Both the position numbers and the translations under genes were made by a program. From NCBI RefSeq assembly GCF_004124325.1, contig NZ_QBDT01000001.1:3348001-3412000 (forward strand): DNA of 64,000 nt, written 5' to 3'. The notes beneath the pieces are model-generated. The model had not been told where the DNA came from. It saw only the letters and a list, made by a program, of their open reading frames with translations, and did no database searches. This DNA comes from Streptomyces sp. L2. Its GTDB lineage: Bacteria; Actinomycetota; Actinomycetes; Streptomycetales; Streptomycetaceae. Shown here one piece after another: positions 31,715 through 45,282 of the stretch. Within the stretch, counting starts at the first letter, position 1; each line of letters opens with the position of its first letter.

Positions 31715-32263
31715 TCAGACCTTGACGCCGTGCGCCTTCAGGAACACCACCGGGTTCACGGCGGAGCCGTAGTTCGGCGTCGTACGGATCTCGAAGTGCA
31801 GGTGCGGACCCGTCGTGTTGCCCGTGTTGCCGGACCGGGCTATGTGCTGGCCGGTCTTGACGACCTGGCCGACCTTGACGTCGATCCGGGACAGGTGGGC
31901 GTACTGCGAGTACAGGTGACCGCCGTGCTTGATGACGATCGCGTTGCCGTAGGCCGGGCCGTCGCCGCCGCCGTTGGGGCCGGCCTTGACGACGGTGCCA
32001 CCGTGCGCGGCGACGACGTTCGTGCCGATCGGCACAGCGAAGTCCTGGCCGCTGTGCTTGTGCATCCAGTGGCTGCCGCCCTGGTTGAAGGTGGCGGTCA
32101 GGGTGTAGTGCTGCACCGGGTCCACCCAGGACGCGGCGGACGGAGCGGCGCTCGCGACACCGGTCCCCAGCACGGCCGTGGCGCCGACTCCGGCGGCCAG
32201 GACGGCCACGCGGTTGCGGAGCGAGGACGTACGGGTGGAACGGGACGTGACGCGCTTGAACAT
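31715..32263 (-). CDS. Secreted M23 family metallopeptidase
   Basis: This is a zinc endopeptidase of the lysostaphin/LytM type that cuts peptide cross-links in peptidoglycan. The 182-residue precursor has a signal peptide (basic start, core VAVLAAGVGATAVLGTGVASA, cleavage after ASA). The zinc-site motifs are HSGQDF near residue 69 and HLHFEIR near the C terminus; a GAGGTC precedes the ATG at 32263. There is no extra wall-binding domain, so it is the short single-domain form. In Streptomyces such wall hydrolases are sometimes controlled by c-di-AMP riboswitches; I found no convincing one in the 5' region. Confidence 0.92.
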   Translation of the reverse strand: MFKRVTSRSTRTSSLRNRVAVLAAGVGATAVLGTGVASAAPSAASWVDPVQHYTLTATFNQGGSHWMHKHSGQDFAVPIGTNVVAAHGGTVVKAGPNGGGDGPAYGNAIVIKHGGHLYSQYAHLSRIDVKVGQVVKTGQHIARSGNTGNTTGPHLHFEIRTTPNYGSAVNPVVFLKAHGVKV

Positions 32264-32657
32264 GGAGACCTCATGGGCTCGGGGACGGGGATCCGCCCGG
32301 CGCGTCGGATGAGCGCCGCAGCGGCCCGTCTTTGGTAACCCGCCGCCCCGCATCGCCTCAAACAGCCGTTCTACGGCATCACGTAGTAGATGAGTGCAAA
32401 ACAACCCACTTCTTGACAGGTGCCCCGCACGCCCGCCAGCAGGGACGATGACGTCGACTTTCCGTTCGAGAGCCTTGAAACATACATACCAATTTGTCCG
32501 AGTTAAGGACGGATTCGTCGGCCACTATTCCGCCTAGTACGAGAGATATGTCCTGTGCGGCATGTCACCGGGACCCAAGATCCACGGACCCCGGAATGTG
32601 ACCGGCGCTACGCTGACCTGCGGTCATGCGGTCACGCGGCACGGGGGTGGACGGGAC
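32264..32657. other. 394-nt divergent intergenic region between the M23 and NACHT genes
   Basis: No gene is seen. The region should hold the promoters of both divergent genes. Around 32473-32512 there is an unusually AT-rich patch (CCTTGAAACATACATACC, then AATTTGTCCGAGTTAAGG), and a second near 32380-32415. TTGACA occurs at 32413-32418 on the plus strand without a matching -10. Such AT-rich patches are favoured targets of Lsr2, whose gene lies 13 kb away. Confidence 0.5.
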
Positions 32658-35600
32658 ATGGAACCGGCGGTGCTCGGCAAGCTGGCGTCGGGTCTGATCG
32701 GGCCGGCGGTGCGCAAGCTGTTCGTGGCGGAGGGACCCGGCGCGGCCCTGGTCGACCGGCCGGTCCGGGTATCCGGGCTGGTGTCCTTCCGGGGCGAGAA
32801 GCGCACCCTCACCCACCGCGACCTGGTCCGGCTCACCACCACGCTGGTGGACCGCGCCACGGGCGCGCCGGGCGAGGCCGCCCTGCCGCCGGACGAGCGG
32901 GACGCCGTCGTGCACGCCCTGGCCGACAGCCTGCACGCCCTCGGCGACCTGACCATGACCGACGTACAGGCCGTCGAGCTGGGACACGACGCCCTCGCCG
33001 CCGCACTGCGCGGCGCAGCCGGCGACCCGGCACGCGACCTGTCCCGGGACGCGGCCCTCTGCTACGGCCGCCTGCTGGCCACGGCCTGCCTGCACATCGT
33101 CAACTTCTTCAGCCAGCGCTCCTCCTTCGTGGCCCGCACCCTGGTCGAGCAGACCCGCAGGCAGCGCGAGCTGATCGCGAAGACGGACGAACTGATCGCC
33201 CGCACGCCCCGGCCCGGCGACGCCGACACCGCCTTCGAGCAGCGCCTCCTCCCCCACCTCGCCACCCGGCACGGCAAGCTCACCATCTACGGCATCGACC
33301 TCGCCGACTCCCCCGACCGCTGGCCCCTGGACGCGGCCTACCTCAGCCTCCAGGCCGTCGGCCCGGCCGGTGCGGACGACGGCCCCGCCCCCTGGCTCGG
33401 CGTCGTCCCCACCGCCCGGCCCGCCGAGCAGGCCCTCGCCGAGCACGACCGGGTGCTGCTGCGCGGGGTCGCCGGCTCCGGCAAGACCACGCTCGTGCAG
33501 TGGCTCGCGGTGACCGCGTCCCGGGGCGAGCGCGGCGATCTGATCCCGTTCGTCCTGCCGCTGCGCACCCTGGTCCGCCGCCCCGACGGGCTGCCCGCGC
33601 CGGACGCCTTCCTGGCCGCCGCCCGCGTCCCCTTCCACGCCAGCCAGCCCGCCGGCTGGGCCGACCGCGTGCTGACCGCCCGGCGCGCGATGCTCCTGGT
33701 GGACGGCCTGGACGAGATCCCCGAACGCGACCGCGAGCGCACCCGGCACTGGCTGCGCGAGCTGCTGGAGGCCTATCCCGGCAACCAGTGGCTGGTCACC
33801 TCCCGCCCGTCCGCCGTACGCGAGAACTGGCTGGCCACCGAGGGCTTCACCGAGCTGGCCCTCACCCCCATGGACCCGGACGAGGTGGCCGCCTTCGTCA
33901 CCCGCTGGCACACCGCCGCCCGCGCCGGGGCACCGGCCACCGAGCACGAGCGCCTCGACGGCTACGAGCGCACCCTCGCCGACGCCGTGCGCGCCAAACC
34001 GGACCTGGCCCGGCTCGCCACCAACCCGCTGATGTGCGGGCTGATCTGCGCCCTGCACCGGGACCGGCGCGGCTATCTCCCGCACGCCCGCCAGGAGTTG
34101 TACGACGCCGCGCTGGCGATGCTGCTGGTGCGCCGCGACGTCGAACGGGACATGTTCGCGGGCCGCGACGGCACGGACGGCGCCCCGCTCGGCGCGCTGC
34201 CACAGATCCAGCTGCTCCAGCGCCTCGCGTACTGGCTGATCCGCAACAACCAGGCGGAGCTGGACCGCGACCGCGCCGAACGCATCATCGCGGACCTGCT
34301 GCCCGCCCTGCCGGCGGCCGCCGCGTACGGCGGTGCCGGGGACGTCCTGGACCATCTGCTGCTGCGCAGCGGCCTGCTGCGCGAACCGGCTCCCGGCACC
34401 GTCGAGTTCGTCCACCGCACCTTCCAGGACTACCTGGGCGCCAAGGCGGCCGTAGAGGACGGCGACTTCGGACTGCTGGTGCGCGGGGCCGCCGACGAGC
34501 AGTGGGCGGACGTGATCCGGATGGCGGTCGCGCACGCCCGGCCCCGCGAACGCGCTGAACTTCTGGGCGAGTTGACCGAGTCGGCGGACCGGCTCACGGG
34601 CGCGGCAAGCACCCGCGTACGGCTGCTGGCGCTGGCCTGCCTGGAGCACGCCACCGAGCTGGACCCGGCCGTGCGGGCCGCCGTGGAGCGCGGCGCGGCC
34701 GCCCTGATCCCGCCGCGCACGACGGAGGAGGCGCGGGCGCTGGCAGCCGCCGGGCCGCTCACGCTGGAGCTGCTGCCCGGCCCGGAGGGGCTGAGCGAGG
34801 AGGAGGCCCGAGCGGTCGTCGTCACGGCGTCGCTGATCGGCACGCAGGCGGCGGTGCCGGTGCTGGCCCGGTTCCGGGACCATCCGGCGGTGCCCGTGCG
34901 GGCACAGCTCACCTGGACCTGGCACCGGTTCCCGACGGTGTCGTACGGCCATGAGGTCATCGCCCGGCTGCGGGAGGACGGCCTCTTCTTCAGCGCCCAG
35001 TCCGGCGAACAGGCCCGTTTTCTGCGCGACTTGGGCGGACGTGCGGCGCAGCAGTTCGTCGGCGACCTCGATCCGGGGGAGCTGGCGGCGAGCCTCGTGC
35101 CGGAGCGGGTGAGCGAGATCTACCTCCGCGACAACGAGCTGCTGCGGGACCTGACCGGCCTCGCCGCGCTGCCCCGGCTGGCCCATGTGGCGCTGGCCAA
35201 CTGCCCGTCGGTGACGGAGCTGGACCCGCTGGCCGGGCTCCCGGTGACCCATCTGTCCCTGAACTCGATGCCGGGCCTGGAGCGGCTTGGCGTGTTCGCC
35301 CCGCTGTCCGGCTCGGCGGACCTGACCAGTCTCGACGTGGGCATGCTGCTGCGGGGCGGCGGCCTGGACGAGGCCCTGCCCCGGGATGTGCCGCTGCGCT
35401 TCCTGCGCTTCACGAAGAACGCGCTGTGGTACACCGGGCTGCGCGGTCTTCACCGCTTCGGGACGCTGAGCCGGCTGAGCCTGGCCAACCTGATCTCGAC
35501 GCTGTCCCCCGAGGACTACGAGGAGATCGCCCGGCTGCCCCACCTGGAGGAGCTGCGGGTGATCTGGGACGTCGTCGGGTGGGCGGGGCCGCCGCTGCCC

Positions 35601-35786
35601 ACCATCAGCAGCCTGCGGCTGTACATGTTCATGGGCGACGAGGACCTCTCGCAGATCGGCCGGCTCTTCCCGGGCCTGACCCGGATCGAGATCTCGCTGG
35701 CCCCGGAGTCGGCGGGCGTACGGCCGGACGTGCGGGCCCGGTTGCCGCTGGAGCCGGTCATCACCCGGGCGACCCGCGTGGTGTGA
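32658..35786 (+). CDS. NACHT domain STAND NTPase with C-terminal leucine-rich repeats (bacterial NLR-like)
   Basis: The 1042-residue protein resembles eukaryotic NLR immune receptors in design. Residues 1-240 form a helical N-terminal effector or adaptor domain; residues 262-560 the NACHT NTPase, with Walker A GVAGSGKTT (Lys276), Walker B MLLVDGLDEIP (Asp349, Asp352, Glu353) and sensor region LVTSRPSAVRE; then helical repeats; and from about residue 815 leucine-rich repeats (LRDLTGLAALPRLAHVALANC, LAGLPVTHLSLNSMPGLERL). The ATG at 32658 is preceded by GGGGGTGG; the longer frame adds 32 residues. Bacterial NACHT proteins (bNACHT) defend against phages, which makes defence the likely role, but a developmental signalling role is also possible. 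Confidence 0.9.
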   Translation: MEPAVLGKLASGLIGPAVRKLFVAEGPGAALVDRPVRVSGLVSFRGEKRTLTHRDLVRLTTTLVDRATGAPGEAALPPDERDAVVHALADSLHALGDLTMTDVQAVELGHDALAAALRGAAGDPARDLSRDAALCYGRLLATACLHIVNFFSQRSSFVARTLVEQTRRQRELIAKTDELIARTPRPGDADTAFEQRLLPHLATRHGKLTIYGIDLADSPDRWPLDAAYLSLQAVGPAGADDGPAPWLGVVPTARPAEQALAEHDRVLLRGVAGSGKTTLVQWLAVTASRGERGDLIPFVLPLRTLVRRPDGLPAPDAFLAAARVPFHASQPAGWADRVLTARRAMLLVDGLDEIPERDRERTRHWLRELLEAYPGNQWLVTSRPSAVRENWLATEGFTELALTPMDPDEVAAFVTRWHTAARAGAPATEHERLDGYERTLADAVRAKPDLARLATNPLMCGLICALHRDRRGYLPHARQELYDAALAMLLVRRDVERDMFAGRDGTDGAPLGALPQIQLLQRLAYWLIRNNQAELDRDRAERIIADLLPALPAAAAYGGAGDVLDHLLLRSGLLREPAPGTVEFVHRTFQDYLGAKAAVEDGDFGLLVRGAADEQWADVIRMAVAHARPRERAELLGELTESADRLTGAASTRVRLLALACLEHATELDPAVRAAVERGAAALIPPRTTEEARALAAAGPLTLELLPGPEGLSEEEARAVVVTASLIGTQAAVPVLARFRDHPAVPVRAQLTWTWHRFPTVSYGHEVIARLREDGLFFSAQSGEQARFLRDLGGRAAQQFVGDLDPGELAASLVPERVSEIYLRDNELLRDLTGLAALPRLAHVALANCPSVTELDPLAGLPVTHLSLNSMPGLERLGVFAPLSGSADLTSLDVGMLLRGGGLDEALPRDVPLRFLRFTKNALWYTGLRGLHRFGTLSRLSLANLISTLSPEDYEEIARLPHLEELRVIWDVVGWAGPPLPTISSLRLYMFMGDEDLSQIGRLFPGLTRIEISLAPESAGVRPDVRARLPLEPVITRATRVV

Positions 35787-35940
35787 CGCACATCTCTGTA
35801 CCACCACCACTCTGTACGACTACCCCCCAGTAACCCTACGGTTCCTTTCGCGCCACCCTCACCACTGATCATGCCCCTGACAGCACAACCGTCAGGAAAA
35901 TCCCGGCAGTTCAGCACCCGGACGTGAGAGGACCCCCACG

Positions 35941-36600
35941 ATGAGCAGACGCCCCTGGGCGCACCGGATCTCCGTCACCGCCGTCTCCGCCGCCGTTTCC
36001 ACGGCAGCGCTGGCCACGCTCACCGTCCCCGCCCACGCGGCGGACACGGCCGACACGACGGCCCCGGCGAACGGCACCACCGCCACGGCCTCGGCCACCG
36101 CCGCCAAGGTCGACTACGGCGCCTGGCAGAGGGACTGCCAGACCGTCATGGACCAGGCGCTGCCCTACCTCAAGGCCCGGATCGCCGACGCCCGGCCGGG
36201 CGAGAAGCAGGCCATCGTCTTCGACATCGACAACACCACGCTCCAGACCGACCTCGGCTTCAGCATCCCGCAGGCCGCCAACAAGCCCGTGCTGAACGTC
36301 GCCCAGTACGCCCAGGCGCACGGCGTCTCCCTGTTCTTCGTCACCGCCCGCCCGGGCATCATCGAGGAACCCACCGAGTGGAACCTGGAGTACGACGGCT
36401 ACCAGGTGTCCGGCCTCTACGTCCGCGGCTTCCTCGACCTCTTCAAGGACGTCGCCGCCTACAAGACCGCCCAGCGCGCCGACATCGAGAGCCACGGCTA
36501 CACGATCATCGCGAACATCGGCAACAGCGCCACCGACCTCAGCGGCGGCCACGCCGAGAAGACGTTCAAACTCCCGGACTACGACGGCCAGTTGTCCTGA
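35941..36600 (+). CDS. Secreted HAD-superfamily acid phosphatase
   Basis: The 219-residue precursor has a signal peptide (basic start, Ala-rich core, cleavage near AHA-ADT). The mature part has HAD motif I, IVFDIDNTTLQ, motif II in FFVTARPG, and motif IV-like DLSGGHA, matching class IIIB acid phosphatases, which free phosphate from organic esters outside the cell. The ATG at 35941 follows GAGAGGAC. It follows the NACHT gene by 154 nt on the same strand but probably has its own promoter, and a strong hairpin ends it. Confidence 0.9.
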   Translation: MSRRPWAHRISVTAVSAAVSTAALATLTVPAHAADTADTTAPANGTTATASATAAKVDYGAWQRDCQTVMDQALPYLKARIADARPGEKQAIVFDIDNTTLQTDLGFSIPQAANKPVLNVAQYAQAHGVSLFFVTARPGIIEEPTEWNLEYDGYQVSGLYVRGFLDLFKDVAAYKTAQRADIESHGYTIIANIGNSATDLSGGHAEKTFKLPDYDGQLS

Positions 36601-36656: not shown

Positions 36657-37343
36657 TCACACCTGCGCGGTGTCCGCCGTGCTCAGCCGCCCGTCGCGCA
36701 CCTCGGCGATCCGGTCGACCGCCGTGAGGTGGGTGCTGTCGTGCGTGACCAGGACGGTCGCGGTGGCCCGCTGCCGGGTCAGGCGGGTGAGGAGGCCGAC
36801 GACGGCGGCGCCGCGCTCGTGGTCGAGGGCGCTGGTGGGCTCGTCGACCAGCAGCACCGTCGGGTCGTTCATCAGGGCGCGGGCGATGTTGACGCGCTGG
36901 CGCTGACCGCCGGAGAGCTGGTGCGGCCGCCGCCCGGCCTGCCCGGCCAGGCCCACGGCGTCGAGCAGTTCCATGGCCCGCTCCCGCGCCGCGCGCGCCT
37001 TGCGCCCGTCGATCCGCGCCATGACCTGGAGCTGCTCCAGCGCGGTCAGGGACGGCAGCAGGTTGGGCTGCTGGAAGACGATCCCGATGCGGTGGCGGCG
37101 CAGGCCGGCGAGTTCCGCGCGGCTCAGCCCGGCGGTGGACGTCCCGTCGACGACCACCGTGCCCCGGTCGGGGGTGATCAGCGTCGCGGCCACCGCGAGC
37201 AGGCTGGACTTGCCCGAGCCGGACGGCCCGACGACCGCGGTGACACTCCCCTTGGGCACCTCCAGGGTGACCCGGTCCAGGGCGGTCAGGCGGGAGTCGC
37301 CGTCGGGGTAGGTCAGCGTGACGTCGGACAGGTGCAGGCTCAT
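36657..37343 (-). CDS. ABC transporter ATP-binding protein (MacB/LolD type)
   Basis: This nucleotide-binding subunit of 228 residues has Walker A GPSGSGKSS, the Q-loop FQQPNLLPSLTA, signature LSGGQRQR, Walker B VLLVDEPTSALD and the H-loop VTHDST. It belongs to the MacB/LolD/FtsE branch that works by mechanotransmission rather than classic import. Its ATG overlaps the stop of the permease gene by 4 nt, so the two form an operon. A divergent two-component system, probably controlling it, starts 240 nt beyond the operon start. Confidence 0.93.
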   Translation of the reverse strand: MSLHLSDVTLTYPDGDSRLTALDRVTLEVPKGSVTAVVGPSGSGKSSLLAVAATLITPDRGTVVVDGTSTAGLSRAELAGLRRHRIGIVFQQPNLLPSLTALEQLQVMARIDGRKARAARERAMELLDAVGLAGQAGRRPHQLSGGQRQRVNIARALMNDPTVLLVDEPTSALDHERGAAVVGLLTRLTRQRATATVLVTHDSTHLTAVDRIAEVRDGRLSTADTAQV

Positions 37344-38452
37344 CGGGCGCTCCCCAGGGCGGTCAGCGGGTCGACGGAGGTGATCCGGCGGACGGACAGC
37401 CCGGCGCCGAGCGCGCCGAGCGCGATCATCACGGCGGCCGGGACCAGGACGGTCGCCGGGGTGAGCAGGAACGGCACGGCCGACCCGGAGAGCAGGGCGC
37501 CCACGCCGGCGGCGATGCCGGTGCCGATCAGCGTGCCGCCGGTCAGCAGGACGACGGCCTGGCCGAGCGCGTCCTTCAGGAGGCTCGCGGTGGAGGCGCC
37601 CAGCGCCTTGAGGACGGCGATGTCACCGCCGCGCTGGATGGTCCACACAGTGAAGAAGGCGCCGATGACGAGCGCCGAGATCGCGAACAGGAAGCCGCGC
37701 ATGAGCTGCAGGGAGCCGTTCTCGGAGGTGTAGGAGCCGATCGCGGACAGCGAGTCGTCCTTCGGCACCGTCTTCGTGCCGGCCACCTCGTCCAGGGCCC
37801 GCACATCGGCGCCCGGGGCGGTGTCCAGCGCGATGACGGTGGCCGTCGGCCCGTCGTCGGCGCGGCCGCTCGGCGGTGCCGTCCGCCGCCAGGTGTCGAG
37901 GCTGACCCAGATCACCGGGGTGTGGCTGAAGGAGGCGTCACCGCGTACGGCTGCGACCGTCAGCCGCTGCCCGGCGAGGGTGAAGCTGTCGCCCGCCGAG
38001 ACGCCGAGGTCGTCGGCGGCGGGCGTCGACAGCACCGCCGTACGGGCGTCGAGCCGGCCGCTGTCCGGGGCCAGCGGGGAGCCGGGGCGGACCCCGAAGG
38101 CGGAGACCCCGCTGCTGCGGTGACCCGCGGTGGCCTTCGTGGTGGCGATGCCCAGCGGCTCCGCGCCGCGCACGCCCGGCGCGTCCGCCCACCGCCGCCA
38201 CTGCTTCTCGGTGACGGTGGAGTCCGCGTACGACAGCTTCTCCCCCGCGCCCGGCGCGCCGAACGCGATCCGGTCCACGGGCAGGGACGTGATCGCGGAC
38301 ACGTTCTGCCGGCCGAGACCGGCGGTCAGCCCGGACAGCAGCCCCACCAGCAGCGTGATCAGCACGATGACGGCGCCCATCAGGGCGAAGCGCCCCTTGG
38401 CGAACTTCAGGTCTCTCCAGGCGACGAACACGGCCTCGGCCTGCCCTCTCAT
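37340..38452 (-). CDS. ABC transporter permease, FtsX/MacB type
   Basis: The 370-residue permease has the MacB/FtsX topology: one membrane helix near residues 25-45, a large extracytoplasmic domain (about 50-250), then three helices (LVIGAFFTVWTIQRGGDIAVLKALG, TGGTLIGTGIAAGVGALLSG, and the last near 335-355). It partners with the ATPase encoded downstream. These exporters handle antimicrobial peptides or cell-wall compounds, and are often regulated by a neighbouring two-component system, as the divergent kinase/regulator pair suggests. ATG at 38452 gives MRGQAEAVFVAWRDLKFAKGRF, the usual family beginning. Confidence 0.92.
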   Translation of the reverse strand: MRGQAEAVFVAWRDLKFAKGRFALMGAVIVLITLLVGLLSGLTAGLGRQNVSAITSLPVDRIAFGAPGAGEKLSYADSTVTEKQWRRWADAPGVRGAEPLGIATTKATAGHRSSGVSAFGVRPGSPLAPDSGRLDARTAVLSTPAADDLGVSAGDSFTLAGQRLTVAAVRGDASFSHTPVIWVSLDTWRRTAPPSGRADDGPTATVIALDTAPGADVRALDEVAGTKTVPKDDSLSAIGSYTSENGSLQLMRGFLFAISALVIGAFFTVWTIQRGGDIAVLKALGASTASLLKDALGQAVVLLTGGTLIGTGIAAGVGALLSGSAVPFLLTPATVLVPAAVMIALGALGAGLSVRRITSVDPLTALGSAR

Positions 38453-38581
38453 GGCGGGGAAAGCGGTATGCCGACAGCCTCGCCGGGGACCCCCCGCCCG
38501 GACATCTGGCCCAGGGGAGCACTTCACTTGTAACTTTCGATGGAGGCCCCGGGGCGGGTCTCTCCTTAGGCTGGGAGGACC

Positions 38582-40066
38582 GTGAACACCACCGCCCCCA
38601 CTCCCGCCCTCACCCCCACCAGCCGGGCCCTCACCTGGTGCCTGCACCTGCTGGTCGCCGGGCTGCTCGCCCTCGCGGCCGGCCGGGCCGTGGCCGACGG
38701 CCACGCGCACGCCGGGGCGGTCGTCGCCGTCGCCGCCGCGTGCGGCCTGGTCTACGCGGCCGGTCCCGCCCTGCCCCGCGTACGGCGCTCACGCCGGGCC
38801 GCCGCGCTGTGGCTGGCCGCCGTGAGCGCCGTATGGCTGGTGCTGCTGGCCCTGTCCGCGGACGGGGTGTGGGTGGCGTTCCCGCTGTACTTCCTCCAGC
38901 TCCACCTGCTGCCGCGCCGGGCCGGCCTGGCCGCCGTCGCGGCCACCGCGGCGGCGGCGATCGCCGCGTTCGCCGCGCACCAGGGCTCGTTCAGCGCGGC
39001 CATGGTGATCGGCCCGGCCCTCGGCGCCGCCGTGGCCGTCGCCGTGGTGTGGGGGTACGAGACCCTGTACCGGGAGAGCGAGCGGCGCCGGCGGCTGATC
39101 GAGGAACTCACCGCCACCCGCGCCGACCTGGCCGCCGCCCAGCACACCGCCGGTGTCCTCGCCGAGCGGGAACGGCTGGCCCGCGAGATCCACGACACCC
39201 TCGCCCAGGGCCTGTCCAGCATCCAGCTGCTGCTGCGCGCCGCCGAACGCGCCCTGCCCGGCACACCGGAGCACGCGACCGCCTCCCGCTACGTCGACCA
39301 GGCCCGCCAGGCCGCCGTCGACAACCTCGCCGAGGCCCGCCGCTTCGTCGCCGCCCTCGCCCCGCCCGCACTGGAGGGCACGACCCTGGCCGACGCGCTG
39401 GCACGGCTGTGCGCCACCACCAGCACCCGCCACCCGGTCACCGCCCGCTTCCACCGCACCGGCGAGCCCGTGCCGCTGCCGACCGCGCACGAGGTCGCCC
39501 TGCTGCGCATCGTGCAGTCCGCGCTCGCCAACACCGTCCGGCACGCCGGGGCCACCACCGTCGACGTCACCCTCGCCCATCCGGCCGGGCACGTCGTCGT
39601 GGAGATCGCCGACGACGGCACCGGTTTCGACCCCGCCGGGCTGCCCACCCCCGACCCGGAGGCCGGCGGCTTCGGCCTGACCGCGATGCGCGCCCGCGCC
39701 CAGGCCCTGGGCGGCACGCTCACGATCCACTCCACCCCCGGCCACGGCACGACCCTCACCGCCCGCCTCCCGCTCACCGACCCGGACCCCACCCGGGTAT
39801 CCGAGGCCACACCGGAGCCCCCAGCGGCACGGGGACCCGCGACCGCCCACCACACCACCGCGCCCTCCGGATGCCACCTCACCCCGCCCACCGACCCCGC
39901 CCCCGGCCCCATGCCCGGCCCGGCGCCCGAGGCCGCGCAGGGGCCCGAAGCCGCGTACGAGTCCGCAGCCCGCCACGGCACGTCGTCGGCTCCTCCCGCG
40001 GCCGACGGGGTCGCCGATGACCTGCCCGGTTCCCCGTCCACGTCCGAAGCCGAGGCCCGTCCGTGA
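38582..40066 (+). CDS. NarL/LuxR-type sensor histidine kinase
   Basis: The 494-residue kinase has about five membrane helices in residues 15-160, a coiled linker, the HisKA_3 box REIHDTLAQGLSSIQLLL with His204, and an ATPase domain (LANTVRHAGATTVDV, EIADDGTGFDP, GGFGLTAMRARAQALGGTL). The last 90 residues are a Pro/Ala-rich tail with no known domain, which is unusual. GTG at 38582 follows GGGAGGA by 5 nt. Its stop overlaps the regulator start by 4 nt (GTGA). It is divergent from the MacB-like exporter and probably senses its substrate. Confidence 0.93.
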   Translation: MNTTAPTPALTPTSRALTWCLHLLVAGLLALAAGRAVADGHAHAGAVVAVAAACGLVYAAGPALPRVRRSRRAAALWLAAVSAVWLVLLALSADGVWVAFPLYFLQLHLLPRRAGLAAVAATAAAAIAAFAAHQGSFSAAMVIGPALGAAVAVAVVWGYETLYRESERRRRLIEELTATRADLAAAQHTAGVLAERERLAREIHDTLAQGLSSIQLLLRAAERALPGTPEHATASRYVDQARQAAVDNLAEARRFVAALAPPALEGTTLADALARLCATTSTRHPVTARFHRTGEPVPLPTAHEVALLRIVQSALANTVRHAGATTVDVTLAHPAGHVVVEIADDGTGFDPAGLPTPDPEAGGFGLTAMRARAQALGGTLTIHSTPGHGTTLTARLPLTDPDPTRVSEATPEPPAARGPATAHHTTAPSGCHLTPPTDPAPGPMPGPAPEAAQGPEAAYESAARHGTSSAPPAADGVADDLPGSPSTSEAEARP

Positions 40067-40698
40067 CCGAGAACCCCGTCCGTCTGCTGCTCGCCGATGA
40101 CCACCCCGTCGTGCGGGCCGGGTTGCGTGCCGTGCTGGAGACCGAGCCCGGGATCGAGGTGGTGGCGGAGGCCGCCACCGCCGAGGAGGCCGTCGTCCGG
40201 GCCGGGGAGGGGGACATCGACGTCGTCCTCATGGACCTGCAGTTCGGCAGGGGCATGAACGGCGCCGAGGCGACCGCCGCGATCACCGCCCGGCCGTCGG
40301 CGCCGCGCGTGCTGATCGTCACCACGTACGACACCGACGCCGACATGCTGCCCGCCATCGAGGCCGGCGCGACGGGCTACCTCCTCAAGGACGCCCCGCC
40401 CGAGGACCTGGCCGCCGCCGTCCGCACCGCCGCGGCCGGCCGGACCACGCTGGCGCCCACCGTCGCCAACCGGCTGATGAACCGGCTGCGCACCCCCGGC
40501 ACCGCCCTGACCCGGCGCGAGACGGAGGTGCTGGCGCTGGTCGCCGGGGGCCTGTCCAACCAGGCCATCGGCGGCCGGCTCCACCTCACCGAGGGCACCG
40601 TCAAATCCCACCTGGCCCGCATCTACGCCAAGCTCGACGTCGACTCGCGCACCGCCGCGGTCGCCACCGCCACGGAACTGGGCCTCATCCGCCGCTGA
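40063..40698 (+). CDS. LuxR-family response regulator
   Basis: The 211-residue regulator has a receiver domain with DD at 12-13, phosphoacceptor Asp58 in VLMDLQFGRG and Lys in LLKDAPPE, and a C-terminal LuxR helix-turn-helix (LTRRETEVLALVAGGLSNQAIGGRLHLTEGTVKSHLARIYAKLDV). It is co-translated with the kinase just upstream through the GTGA overlap. Its likely target is the divergent ABC exporter operon. The last 14 bases overlap the 3' end of the converging ACT-domain gene. Confidence 0.94.
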   Translation: MTENPVRLLLADDHPVVRAGLRAVLETEPGIEVVAEAATAEEAVVRAGEGDIDVVLMDLQFGRGMNGAEATAAITARPSAPRVLIVTTYDTDADMLPAIEAGATGYLLKDAPPEDLAAAVRTAAAGRTTLAPTVANRLMNRLRTPGTALTRRETEVLALVAGGLSNQAIGGRLHLTEGTVKSHLARIYAKLDVDSRTAAVATATELGLIRR

Positions 40699-40975
40699 CG
40701 CCCGGCCCGTCGGGACGCTCGGAGACGGCCAGGGCGTCCACCATGCGGTTCAGCCGGGCGCGGGCCCGCGCGGCGTACGCGCGCGGCACCCGGATCTCCG
40801 CCGTCGCCCACCGGGCGTCCGCCACCGCGTACGACAGCGCCAGCACCGGCATGCTGCTCAGCAAGGCGGCGATCCGGCCCAGCGCGCCACGGCTGTCCCG
40901 CAGCGTCACGGAGAACGTGCACACCCCGCCGGTCGGGGTGGTGGTGTCCGGGAGGGAAAAGACGTCGTGTGTCAT
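40685..40975 (-). CDS. ACT-domain protein, behind a putative attenuator
   Basis: The 96 residues form one ACT-like domain, TFSVTLRDSRGALGRIAALLSSMPVLALSYAVADARWATAEIRV, resembling the N-terminal part of the acetolactate synthase small subunit. ACT domains bind amino acids; with no catalytic partner encoded nearby, this is probably a regulatory protein. The ATG at 40975 has AGGAAA upstream. Its 5' region contains a possible 15-codon leader ORF and an intrinsic terminator, as in genes controlled by attenuation. The gene converges on and overlaps the response regulator by 14 nt. Confidence 0.82.
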   Translation of the reverse strand: MTHDVFSLPDTTTPTGGVCTFSVTLRDSRGALGRIAALLSSMPVLALSYAVADARWATAEIRVPRAYAARARARLNRMVDALAVSERPDGPGVSGG

Positions 40976-41280: not shown

Positions 41281-43806
<2,526 letters not shown>

Positions 43807-44230: not shown

Positions 44231-44968
44231 GTGACGGTTGCACCTGGCATGGCTGGTTCGGTCCCCGCGACCTCCACGGTCCCCCTGCTCCCCCTCCCCC
44301 GCCGCCCCCTCGACCCGCAGGCCCCGGACACCTCAGCGGTCCGGCGCTGGTACGAGAACGAGCTGGGCTGGCCGACCGCGCCCGGGGACCCGCTGTGCCT
44401 GCGCACCGGCGTCCGGTTCGACGTCCTGGACGTCCCGGCCGAGGCGGGCGCGGCCGCTCTGCGGCATCTGGGGCCGGACTCCCCGGTGGCCCTGCACGGG
44501 GACCGGCTACGGCTACTGGTGGCCGCGGGCAGCGCGGAGGAGCTGCCGGGGCTGCTGGAGTGGCTGGAGTGGGGCGCCCTGCGACTGGACCTGCGGACCC
44601 TGGGCGCGGGCGGCCTGATAGCGGCACCGGGACTGCCTGGGCTGCCTGGGCTGCCTGGGCTGCCTGGGGCCGGCGTTCCCGGGGCTTCGGTCCAAGGGGC
44701 CGGTGCTGCTGGGGCTTCGGCCCGAGGGGCCGGTGCTGCCGGGGCTTCGGTCCAGGGGGCCGCCATGTGGGTGCGGCCCCCTGGGCCGGGAGGTGAGGTC
44801 GAGGCCTCGCTGCCGACACTGGCGTCGGCAATGGGGGGCCCGGGGGGCGCCCCTGATCTCGTGCGACTGGTGGACACGGTGGCAGCGGGGTGCCACCGGA
44901 TCCGGCTGCGGCGCGCGTGCGCCCGGCCGTCCGCCGGTCTGCGGATTCAGCCGTTGGCCTTCTCGTAG
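44231..44968 (+). CDS. SCO3374-family protein with a collagen-like repeat insertion
   Basis: The GTG at 44231 has GGGGG about 6 nt upstream and gives 245 residues. The family is found between clpC and lsr2 in Streptomyces; I recall the name SCO3374 family, with partial similarity to primase/polymerase-like proteins, but no activity is known. Conserved-looking parts are RRWYENELGWPTAPGDPLCLRTGVRFDVLDVPAEAG and the C-terminal DLVRLVDTVAAGCHRIRLRRACA. Between them lie GLPGLPGLPGLPG and several GAGAAGAS-type repeats, about 45 residues of low complexity, probably a strain-specific expansion. Its end overlaps the converging lsr2 gene by 22 nt. Confidence 0.75.
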   Translation: MTVAPGMAGSVPATSTVPLLPLPRRPLDPQAPDTSAVRRWYENELGWPTAPGDPLCLRTGVRFDVLDVPAEAGAAALRHLGPDSPVALHGDRLRLLVAAGSAEELPGLLEWLEWGALRLDLRTLGAGGLIAAPGLPGLPGLPGLPGAGVPGASVQGAGAAGASARGAGAAGASVQGAAMWVRPPGPGGEVEASLPTLASAMGGPGGAPDLVRLVDTVAAGCHRIRLRRACARPSAGLRIQPLAFS

Positions 44969-45282
44969 GCCTCGCGAATGGTGGCGGGGACACGGCCGCG
45001 GTCGTTGACCTCCATGCCGTTCTCCTTCGCCCACGCGCGGATCGCCGCGGTGTCCTGGTTGCCACTGGTAGCGGCGCGCGTCTTTCCGCGTCCGCCCGCG
45101 GCACGGCCACCGGTACGGCGCCCGCCCTTCACATAAGGCTCGAGAAGGCCGCGCAGCTTGTCCGCATTGGTGGTCTTGAGATCGATCTCGTACGTCTTGC
45201 CGTCCAGCGCGAACGTCACGGTCTCGTCGGCCTCGCCACCGTCGAGGTCGTCGACAAGAAGGACCTGAACCTTCTGTGCCAC
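44947..45282 (-). CDS. lsr2: Nucleoid-associated silencer Lsr2
   Basis: Lsr2 is the actinobacterial H-NS-like protein that binds AT-rich DNA and silences foreign and antibiotic genes. The 111 residues have an N-terminal dimerisation domain (AQKVQVLLVDDLDGGEADETVTFALDGKTYEIDL) and a C-terminal DNA-binding domain with the RGR hook in VNDRGRVPATI. A basic Gly/Arg linker joins them. GTG at 45282 follows AAAGGAAA, a better-placed ribosome site than the one for a start 5 codons upstream. The gene has its own AT-rich promoter region with palindromes. Confidence 0.97.
   Translation of the reverse strand: MAQKVQVLLVDDLDGGEADETVTFALDGKTYEIDLKTTNADKLRGLLEPYVKGGRRTGGRAAGGRGKTRAATSGNQDTAAIRAWAKENGMEVNDRGRVPATIREAYEKANG

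Follow-up and report, generated by a model that had tools for sequence, protein, structure and literature searches.

We analysed a gene in a 64,000-nucleotide stretch of the Streptomyces sp. L2 genome (NCBI RefSeq assembly GCF_004124325.1, contig NZ_QBDT01000001.1, positions 3,348,001 to 3,412,000 of the forward strand), hereafter the window. The gene encodes a bacterial NLR, in which an N-terminal NNH1 domain is followed by a NACHT NTPase, a helical/winged-helix part and leucine-rich repeats (LRR). It lies in a slot between genes for an M23 peptidase and ClpC (Table 1).

The open reading frame (ORF) is intact, from the ATG at 32658 to the stop at 35786, and its coding score, 280.2, is the top value within 26–41 kb. 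An alternative longer in-frame start, at 32562, falls in DNA common to loci where the slot is empty, and a start equivalent to 32658 is used by many homologues. The PF22733 match (cut-off 27 bits) covers profile positions 3–177 of 177, and the cut-off for PF05729 is 26.7 bits. In the alignment of 76 rows, invariant columns are G270, G273, G275, K276 and T277 of Walker A (GVAGSGKTT) and D349, G350, D352 and E353 of Walker B (LLVDGLDE). The LRR_4 match at residues 820–859 is below the Pfam cut-off (22.2 against 27 bits), so the support for the C-terminal LRR, a feature of bacterial NLRs and bNACHT proteins, comes mainly from strands in the structural model and from PDB matches. Thus the NLR plan with a helical N-terminal domain, proposed in an initial annotation made from the sequence alone, is borne out by Pfam for NNH1 and NACHT and by modelling for the remainder. 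The same annotation saw no known nuclease or protease domain, and indeed NNH1 is the only Pfam family at E ≤ 1 in the N-terminal 181 residues, with no PD-(D/E)XK nuclease of the clade 6 type among the matches. Pfam identifies no N-terminal trypsin-like domain in the window gene and no Trypco2 among ten neighbouring genes. Pfam also finds no CARD in the protein, although CARDs of bacteria can be missed by Pfam, and comparing the fold of NNH1 with solved structures produced nothing above noise. Finally, no match of the N-terminal domain to a developmental signalling protein, a resemblance which, together with unchanged phage sensitivity, the initial annotation regarded as speaking against defence, was found in Pfam, NCBIfam or the PDB.

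Table 1. Features of the slot and of the NLR gene (window coordinates).
Feature	Position	Strand	Description and evidence
M23 peptidase, left anchor of the slot	31715..32263	-	PF01551, 110.4 bits
Conserved intergenic element, left edge of the slot	32523..32571		Core TAGTA-N13-CTGTGCGNCNTGTCACCG; upstream of M23
Stretch absent from empty M23–HAD sites (approximate limits)	32603..35816		blastn, both flanks against 14 empty-site loci
NNH1-NACHT-LRR gene, bacterial NLR	32658..35786	+	1042 aa; ORF, coding score, Pfam, AlphaFold2, fold matches to NOD2, NLRC4 and NLRP3
NNH1 domain	32679..33200	+	aa 8–181; PF22733, 195.6 bits; helical in models
NACHT NTPase, intact Walker A and B	33450..33917	+	aa 265–420; PF05729, 100.1 bits
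Helical/winged-helix part with conserved HRTFQDYL segment	33918..34577	+	aa 421–640; alignment, 7alv match
Leucine-rich repeats, fastest evolving part	35046..35768	+	aa about 797–1037; model strands, identity, dN/dS
HAD IIIB acid phosphatase, frequent neighbour inside the slot	35941..36600	+	PF03767, 123.8 bits
ClpC-type AAA+ gene, right anchor of the slot	41281..43806	-	Clp_N, AAA_2, AAA_lid_9, ClpB_D2-small

The full-length AlphaFold2 model (pLDDT 85.8, pTM 0.71) features eleven short strands at residues 797–1037, the pLDDT of this block being mostly above 90. When the model is compared with the PDB, residues from about 188 to 1039 form the full NLR body, matching NOD2 (the best fold match), NLRC4 and NLRP3. 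The crystal structure of the NLRP3 NACHT module, 7alv, aligns over residues 191–708 (411 residues, root-mean-square deviation 4.0). The predicted fold and the order of NACHT, helical/winged-helix part and LRR are shared with these animal receptors, whereas the sequence identity is 12–20% and the N-terminal domain has no PDB match above noise.

NNH1 with the linker, modelled separately (205 residues), is helical (pLDDT 78.2, pTM 0.69). A conserved helix at residues 3–19, preceding and entering NNH1, is predicted to be amphipathic by its hydrophobic moment, and its consensus across homologues is MEPxxxGxRLASxxxxPLVKKLFV. In 23 of 28 NNH1 rows (every second row was taken), its combined moment and hydrophobicity rank within the top 0.1–0.7% of windows along the same protein; the other five (loci L085, L104, L127, L157, L166) differ in the called start. 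The model quality is low at residues 1–9 (pLDDT below 50). This predicted helix suggests that NNH1 may act at the membrane, and it may resemble the MADA-type pore helix of plant CC-NLRs, which inserts into the membrane.

When 61 genomes were searched with the gene and its two neighbours, NACHT matches repeatedly adjoined an ortholog of the M23 peptidase. At E ≤ 1e-45, 187 of the 199 Streptomyces genomes sampled have a match to this ortholog, and 148 of these were listed. We analysed 121 stretches, that is, 120 loci around M23 and the window; they represent the best-ranked M23 matches and a few lower ones, and the sample is biased toward relatives of the window. The clpC gene is reached from M23 in 115 stretches. 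A NACHT ORF is situated between the two in 51 of these (full-length, above 800 amino acids, in 49), and 36 have the HAD gene without NACHT. All 60 slot NACHT ORFs are oriented toward clpC, and 17 loci have no called gene in the slot other than the NACHT gene. The starts were assigned by a simple GC-frame caller, and some of them, such as those of L085, the first gene of L089, L146 and L166, look wrong. As seen from the NNH1 genes, 58 of 97 lie within 9 kb upstream of an M23 ortholog, all 58 being divergent from it; of the 150 NNH1 matches listed, the 97 come from genomes whose M23 place was listed as well. Since the other 39 are farther off (20) or on another contig (19), the slot is the preferred but not the exclusive home of these genes. 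Hence the M23–clpC slot is a recurrent NACHT address, used by many Streptomyces species. The open-licence PMC literature that we searched, with at most 20 papers listed per search, yielded no description of this slot or of its turnover. The initial annotation had placed the gene between unrelated housekeeping genes; this is correct for the immediate neighbours, M23 peptidase and acid phosphatase, but misses the recurrent address.

The slot NACHT is far from universal. On a tree of clpC DNA (113 loci; quickly searched and built from this single gene) its full-length form is present in 47 loci and absent in 66, which requires 25 changes; well-supported branches force 16 of these. When the presence labels are shuffled, about 36 changes are required, and none of 500 shuffles was as low as 25, indicating inheritance, yet with gain or loss on many occasions. 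For the HAD neighbour, present in 55 of the 113 loci, the number is seven. In the supported clade containing the window, the slot NACHT is missing in 10 of 12 rows. Two or three NACHT genes stand in tandem in L088, L089, L094, L102, L118, L130, L145 and L157; the tandem NNH1-NACHT genes of L088, L089, L094 and L157 are about 830–865 amino acids long and stop before most of the LRR. Remnants are seen in L066, L076 and L138, and a broken copy in L121, while the NACHT-less L051 retains the final bases of an ORF that is intact in its near relative L054.

Comparison of the window with the 14 empty M23–HAD loci reduces the difference to a stretch of about 3.2 kb. The left homology stops at 32571–32611 in nine loci and at 32311–32432 in five, and the right homology restarts at 35817–35830 in ten and at 35912–35920 in four. 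This may reflect either gain in the lineage of the window or loss in its relatives. The NACHT and ClpC distances correlate well in group C and in the trypsin group described below (Mantel r 0.80 and n = 13 in each, reached in 0 of 5000 permutations) and weakly in the group of the window (r 0.34, n = 8) and in group B (r 0.41, n = 13), where 274 and 289 of 5000 permutations, respectively, gave values as high.

By alignment and tree, the 62 slot ORFs longer than 800 amino acids comprise 49 of the NNH1 type and 13 of a trypsin type; besides the window gene, the type of six was also assigned by Pfam. Several of the 23 tree rows labelled "else" are slot genes reached via other loci (for example, L031 and L034–L038), and this label was not used for the counts. 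Homology of the 13 trypsin-type ORFs to the window protein starts near residue 190 and extends into the LRR, with 31–34% identity in the ten that were aligned. Two of them, scanned by Pfam, contain Trypsin_2 and NACHT; GLSG is present in all 13 and TxAH in 12, the exception being L146, whose start is probably miscalled. Out of 15 small upstream genes, 14 look alike and precede trypsin-type NACHTs (in L121, the broken copy), and that of L157 differs; the only one of the 14 scanned by Pfam is Trypco2. Thus NNH1 is placed where related slot genes have a trypsin-like protease, that is, in the effector or signalling position. In the near-sisters L120 and L133 of the ClpC tree, the former has an NNH1 NLR and the latter a trypsin NLR together with a scar, in which the start region of an NNH1 gene survives with 133 identical positions out of 151 bp. 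Since L118 has both types, differential loss and a swap explain this pair equally well.

The LRR is the least conserved part of the protein. Averaged over pairs of the 28 rows of the orthologue clade, identity amounts to 0.72 in NNH1, 0.86 in NACHT and 0.53 in the LRR (residues 791–1042); the corresponding values for 38 other NNH1 rows are 0.58, 0.68 and 0.27. The ratio of nonsynonymous to synonymous substitution rates (dN/dS) was estimated in 19 pairs of slot genes. In the LRR it is 0.40–1.30 in 16 pairs, although LRR alignments of diverged genes may inflate dN, and 0.11–0.14 in three, all of the 860-residue type ending before most of the LRR, whose last part evolves slowly. The values for all 19 pairs are 0.06–0.45 for NACHT+HD, and those for the N-terminal domain are 0.03–0.51. 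For the window gene the NACHT+HD ratio is 0.27 against L154 and 0.21 against L122, that is, purifying selection. Polar residues on or beside the LRR strands are more variable than the other polar LRR residues in the clade (1.68 against 1.50 bits), in the other NNH1 rows (3.02 against 2.37 bits) and in the trypsin-NACHT rows (2.16 against 1.76 bits), no significance test being applied. A diversifying sensor would show such a pattern, and relaxed constraint fits it too.

We believe that the window gene probably encodes a resident bacterial NLR immune receptor that senses an invader, oligomerises and halts the infected hypha through NNH1. Defence, suggested already by the initial annotation, is its most likely role, given the fast-evolving LRR, the trypsin-NACHT and Trypco2 genes in the same slot and the turnover. 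The LRR would recognise a phage, another invader or a change in the host caused by the invader, and ATP-dependent oligomerisation of NACHT would then gather the NNH1 domains. Clustered NNH1 would halt growth or kill the infected compartment, so that the mycelium is spared. Its action could be direct, such as insertion of the conserved amphipathic helix into the membrane, or alternatively it may recruit an effector encoded elsewhere.

Several results do not favour a receptor of this kind. PADLOC has no model match for the gene (the best E is 0.023, with three weak matches in the P-loop region), the protein has no match among 50,697 phage records, Pfam sees no defence domain in the ten neighbouring genes, and no solved structure in the PDB matches NNH1 above noise. 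The other slot cargo that we scanned, an S13 peptidase, a PQQ-repeat protein and an MFS protein, is not defence-like, and hence the slot is not a general defence island. Moreover, the synonymous rate of the LRR is also raised in some pairs (0.93 against 0.26 in L125/L126, 0.81 against 0.30 in L068/L069), which points to replacement of LRR blocks or misalignment as a contributing cause, and a high LRR dN/dS can reflect relaxed constraint, misalignment or recombination of LRR blocks.

A step further would be to describe the slot as an NLR cluster at one address, similar to a plant resistance-gene cluster, with NNH1 as a new pore-forming executioner. Taken jointly this is doubtful, and its two parts differ in standing. 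The cluster is largely shown by the tandem copies, loss and decay, interchangeable NNH1 or trypsin heads on one body, and LRRs evolving fastest; entry of the amphipathic helix into the membrane upon assembly of the NACHT ring is a conjecture. The immune-receptor model also has a variant that differs in the last step only, NNH1 being just an adaptor and the activated NLR recruiting a separate protease, nuclease or pore former encoded elsewhere, as proposed for EAD-type adaptors. We regard this variant as possible, if tentative: Pfam assigns no known effector domain to NNH1, passages of PMC10907252 and PMC8195603 describe the adaptor principle, and CARD-NLR systems appear as multi-protein in PMC13236601. 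On the other hand, the window gene is the sole NNH1 match of its genome, which argues against a homotypic partner (other partners were not searched for), and the 17 loci with NACHT as the only slot gene indicate that no co-inherited neighbour is needed besides M23 and clpC.

The remaining explanations are less likely. The vicinity of clpC and lsr2 and the vertical signal in two slot NACHT groups would suit a role outside defence, with a STAND protein regulating development or the physiology of the cell wall and its LRR reading an internal signal; this seems unlikely, as 66 of 113 loci manage without a full-length slot NACHT, with 25 changes on the tree, the LRR evolves fast, and the slot alternates with protease-bearing NLRs. 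Animal NOD2 senses peptidoglycan fragments or wall damage, and since NOD2 is the best fold match and 58 of the 97 listed NNH1 genes stand divergently within 9 kb upstream of M23, one might think of a similar sensor coupled to the adjacent peptidase, but we give this little credence. Least probable of all is that the gene is a passenger, decaying or neutral, in a gap prone to recombination: remnants and broken copies in L066, L076, L121 and L138 do show decay, while the window ORF is intact and its NACHT+HD region is under purifying selection.

If the immune-receptor model is true, the slot provides an easily found address across the sampled genus for following the evolution of bacterial NLRs, and near-sister species differing in the retained NLR make it informative. 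The body shared by protease- and NNH1-headed receptors bears on the function of NNH1, a family that exceeds its cut-off in 122 of the 199 Streptomyces genomes sampled, each of the 122 having one to four matches.

The protein is a direct member of the Pfam NNH1 (PF22733) NACHT proteins of Streptomyces, with no architectural difference seen. A protein search that scored 7987 candidates gave 2969 homologues at E ≤ 0.001; identity is 64–72% in the 120 that were listed, the named organisms are Streptomyces, and many are annotated as "NACHT domain-containing protein". Relatives are found in 77 plasmid records (20 from Nostoc, 18 from Streptomyces), all below 60% identity. The initial annotation had expected a single-gene system with an undefined effector to be novel. 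This expectation is not supported, as NNH1 is a named and widespread family, and clade 14 bNACHTs that protect without readily discernible effector domains, as well as LRR-bearing bacterial NLRs, are reported in passages of PMC12169576. Hence the architecture is already known and the window gene is a real, ordinary member, although its address is unusual and informative.

The same passages call bacterial NACHT-LRR proteins "bona fide bacterial NLRs". The window protein shares with bNACHT antiphage proteins the central NACHT module within a single large protein. It differs from clade 6 bNACHTs, which carry nucleases according to that source, in having NNH1 instead of the N-terminal PD-(D/E)XK nuclease. 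NACHT and other STAND NTPases are placed in conflict systems of multicellular bacteria by parts of PMC7159879 and PMC8195603, and Trypco2 is described in part of PMC10907252 as an adaptor in systems with trypsin-like effectors. The trypsin/Trypco2-NACHT genes have the same body and slot as the window gene and differ in the protease and the separate Trypco2 gene. According to PMC13236601, the CARD-NLR systems of Lysobacter and Caulobacter (LypABC) likewise use a STAND/NLR-like protein, in a pathway of cell lysis or defence, whereas the window NLR is a single gene that has neither a trypsin-like protease gene nor an effector gene next to it. Streptomyces defence genes are covered in PMC10482375, where the word "NACHT" is absent from the main text.

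The AT-rich upstream patch mentioned in the initial annotation is real: AT content at 32470–32560 is 50.5%, compared with 27.6% in the whole window, and only 0.05% of 91-bp windows reach it. However, it belongs to an intergenic block that is also present in genomes without NACHT (AT of the block 0.40 in 65 loci without NACHT, 0.39 in 52 with it), and so it is no sign of foreign DNA. The conserved intergenic element scores above the best of 60 shuffled controls in 119 of 121 stretches, five of which are the sources of the motif itself; the two failing stretches are L110, which is cut short, and L148, with other genes and no ClpC. The element is kept at the edge of the slot whatever follows, empty slots included, and thus probably serves the M23 gene. 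At up to three mismatches, TAGTA-N13-CTGTGCGNCNTGTCACCG has a single forward site in the genome, with zero mismatches, although the reversed control pattern likewise has one match, so that a chance match is possible. No Rfam family matches the element.

Pfam confirmed the identities of M23, HAD, ClpC and Lsr2. Around the NLR, the window contains the divergent M23 gene, the HAD phosphatase, an ABC pair, a two-component pair and ClpC. The region between HAD and clpC (36657–40975) encodes an ABC transporter (ATPase and FtsX/MacB-type permease), a LuxR-type two-component pair and a small ORF, and this extra set is not matched by gene pattern in any other of the 115 stretches reaching ClpC. Lsr2, a xenogeneic silencer, is encoded at 44947–45282, beyond clpC and close to the NLR slot. 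The genome of the window has one NNH1 match, the gene considered here, two NACHT matches above the cut-off and one below; the second above the cut-off is at G000:C1:5314036-5314491 (L032). A long secreted-looking protein occupies the slot in L129, L141, L156 and L160, and follows a NACHT gene in L099 and L147; that of L129 is an S13 D-Ala-D-Ala carboxypeptidase by Pfam, and the others are alike by their N-termini only.

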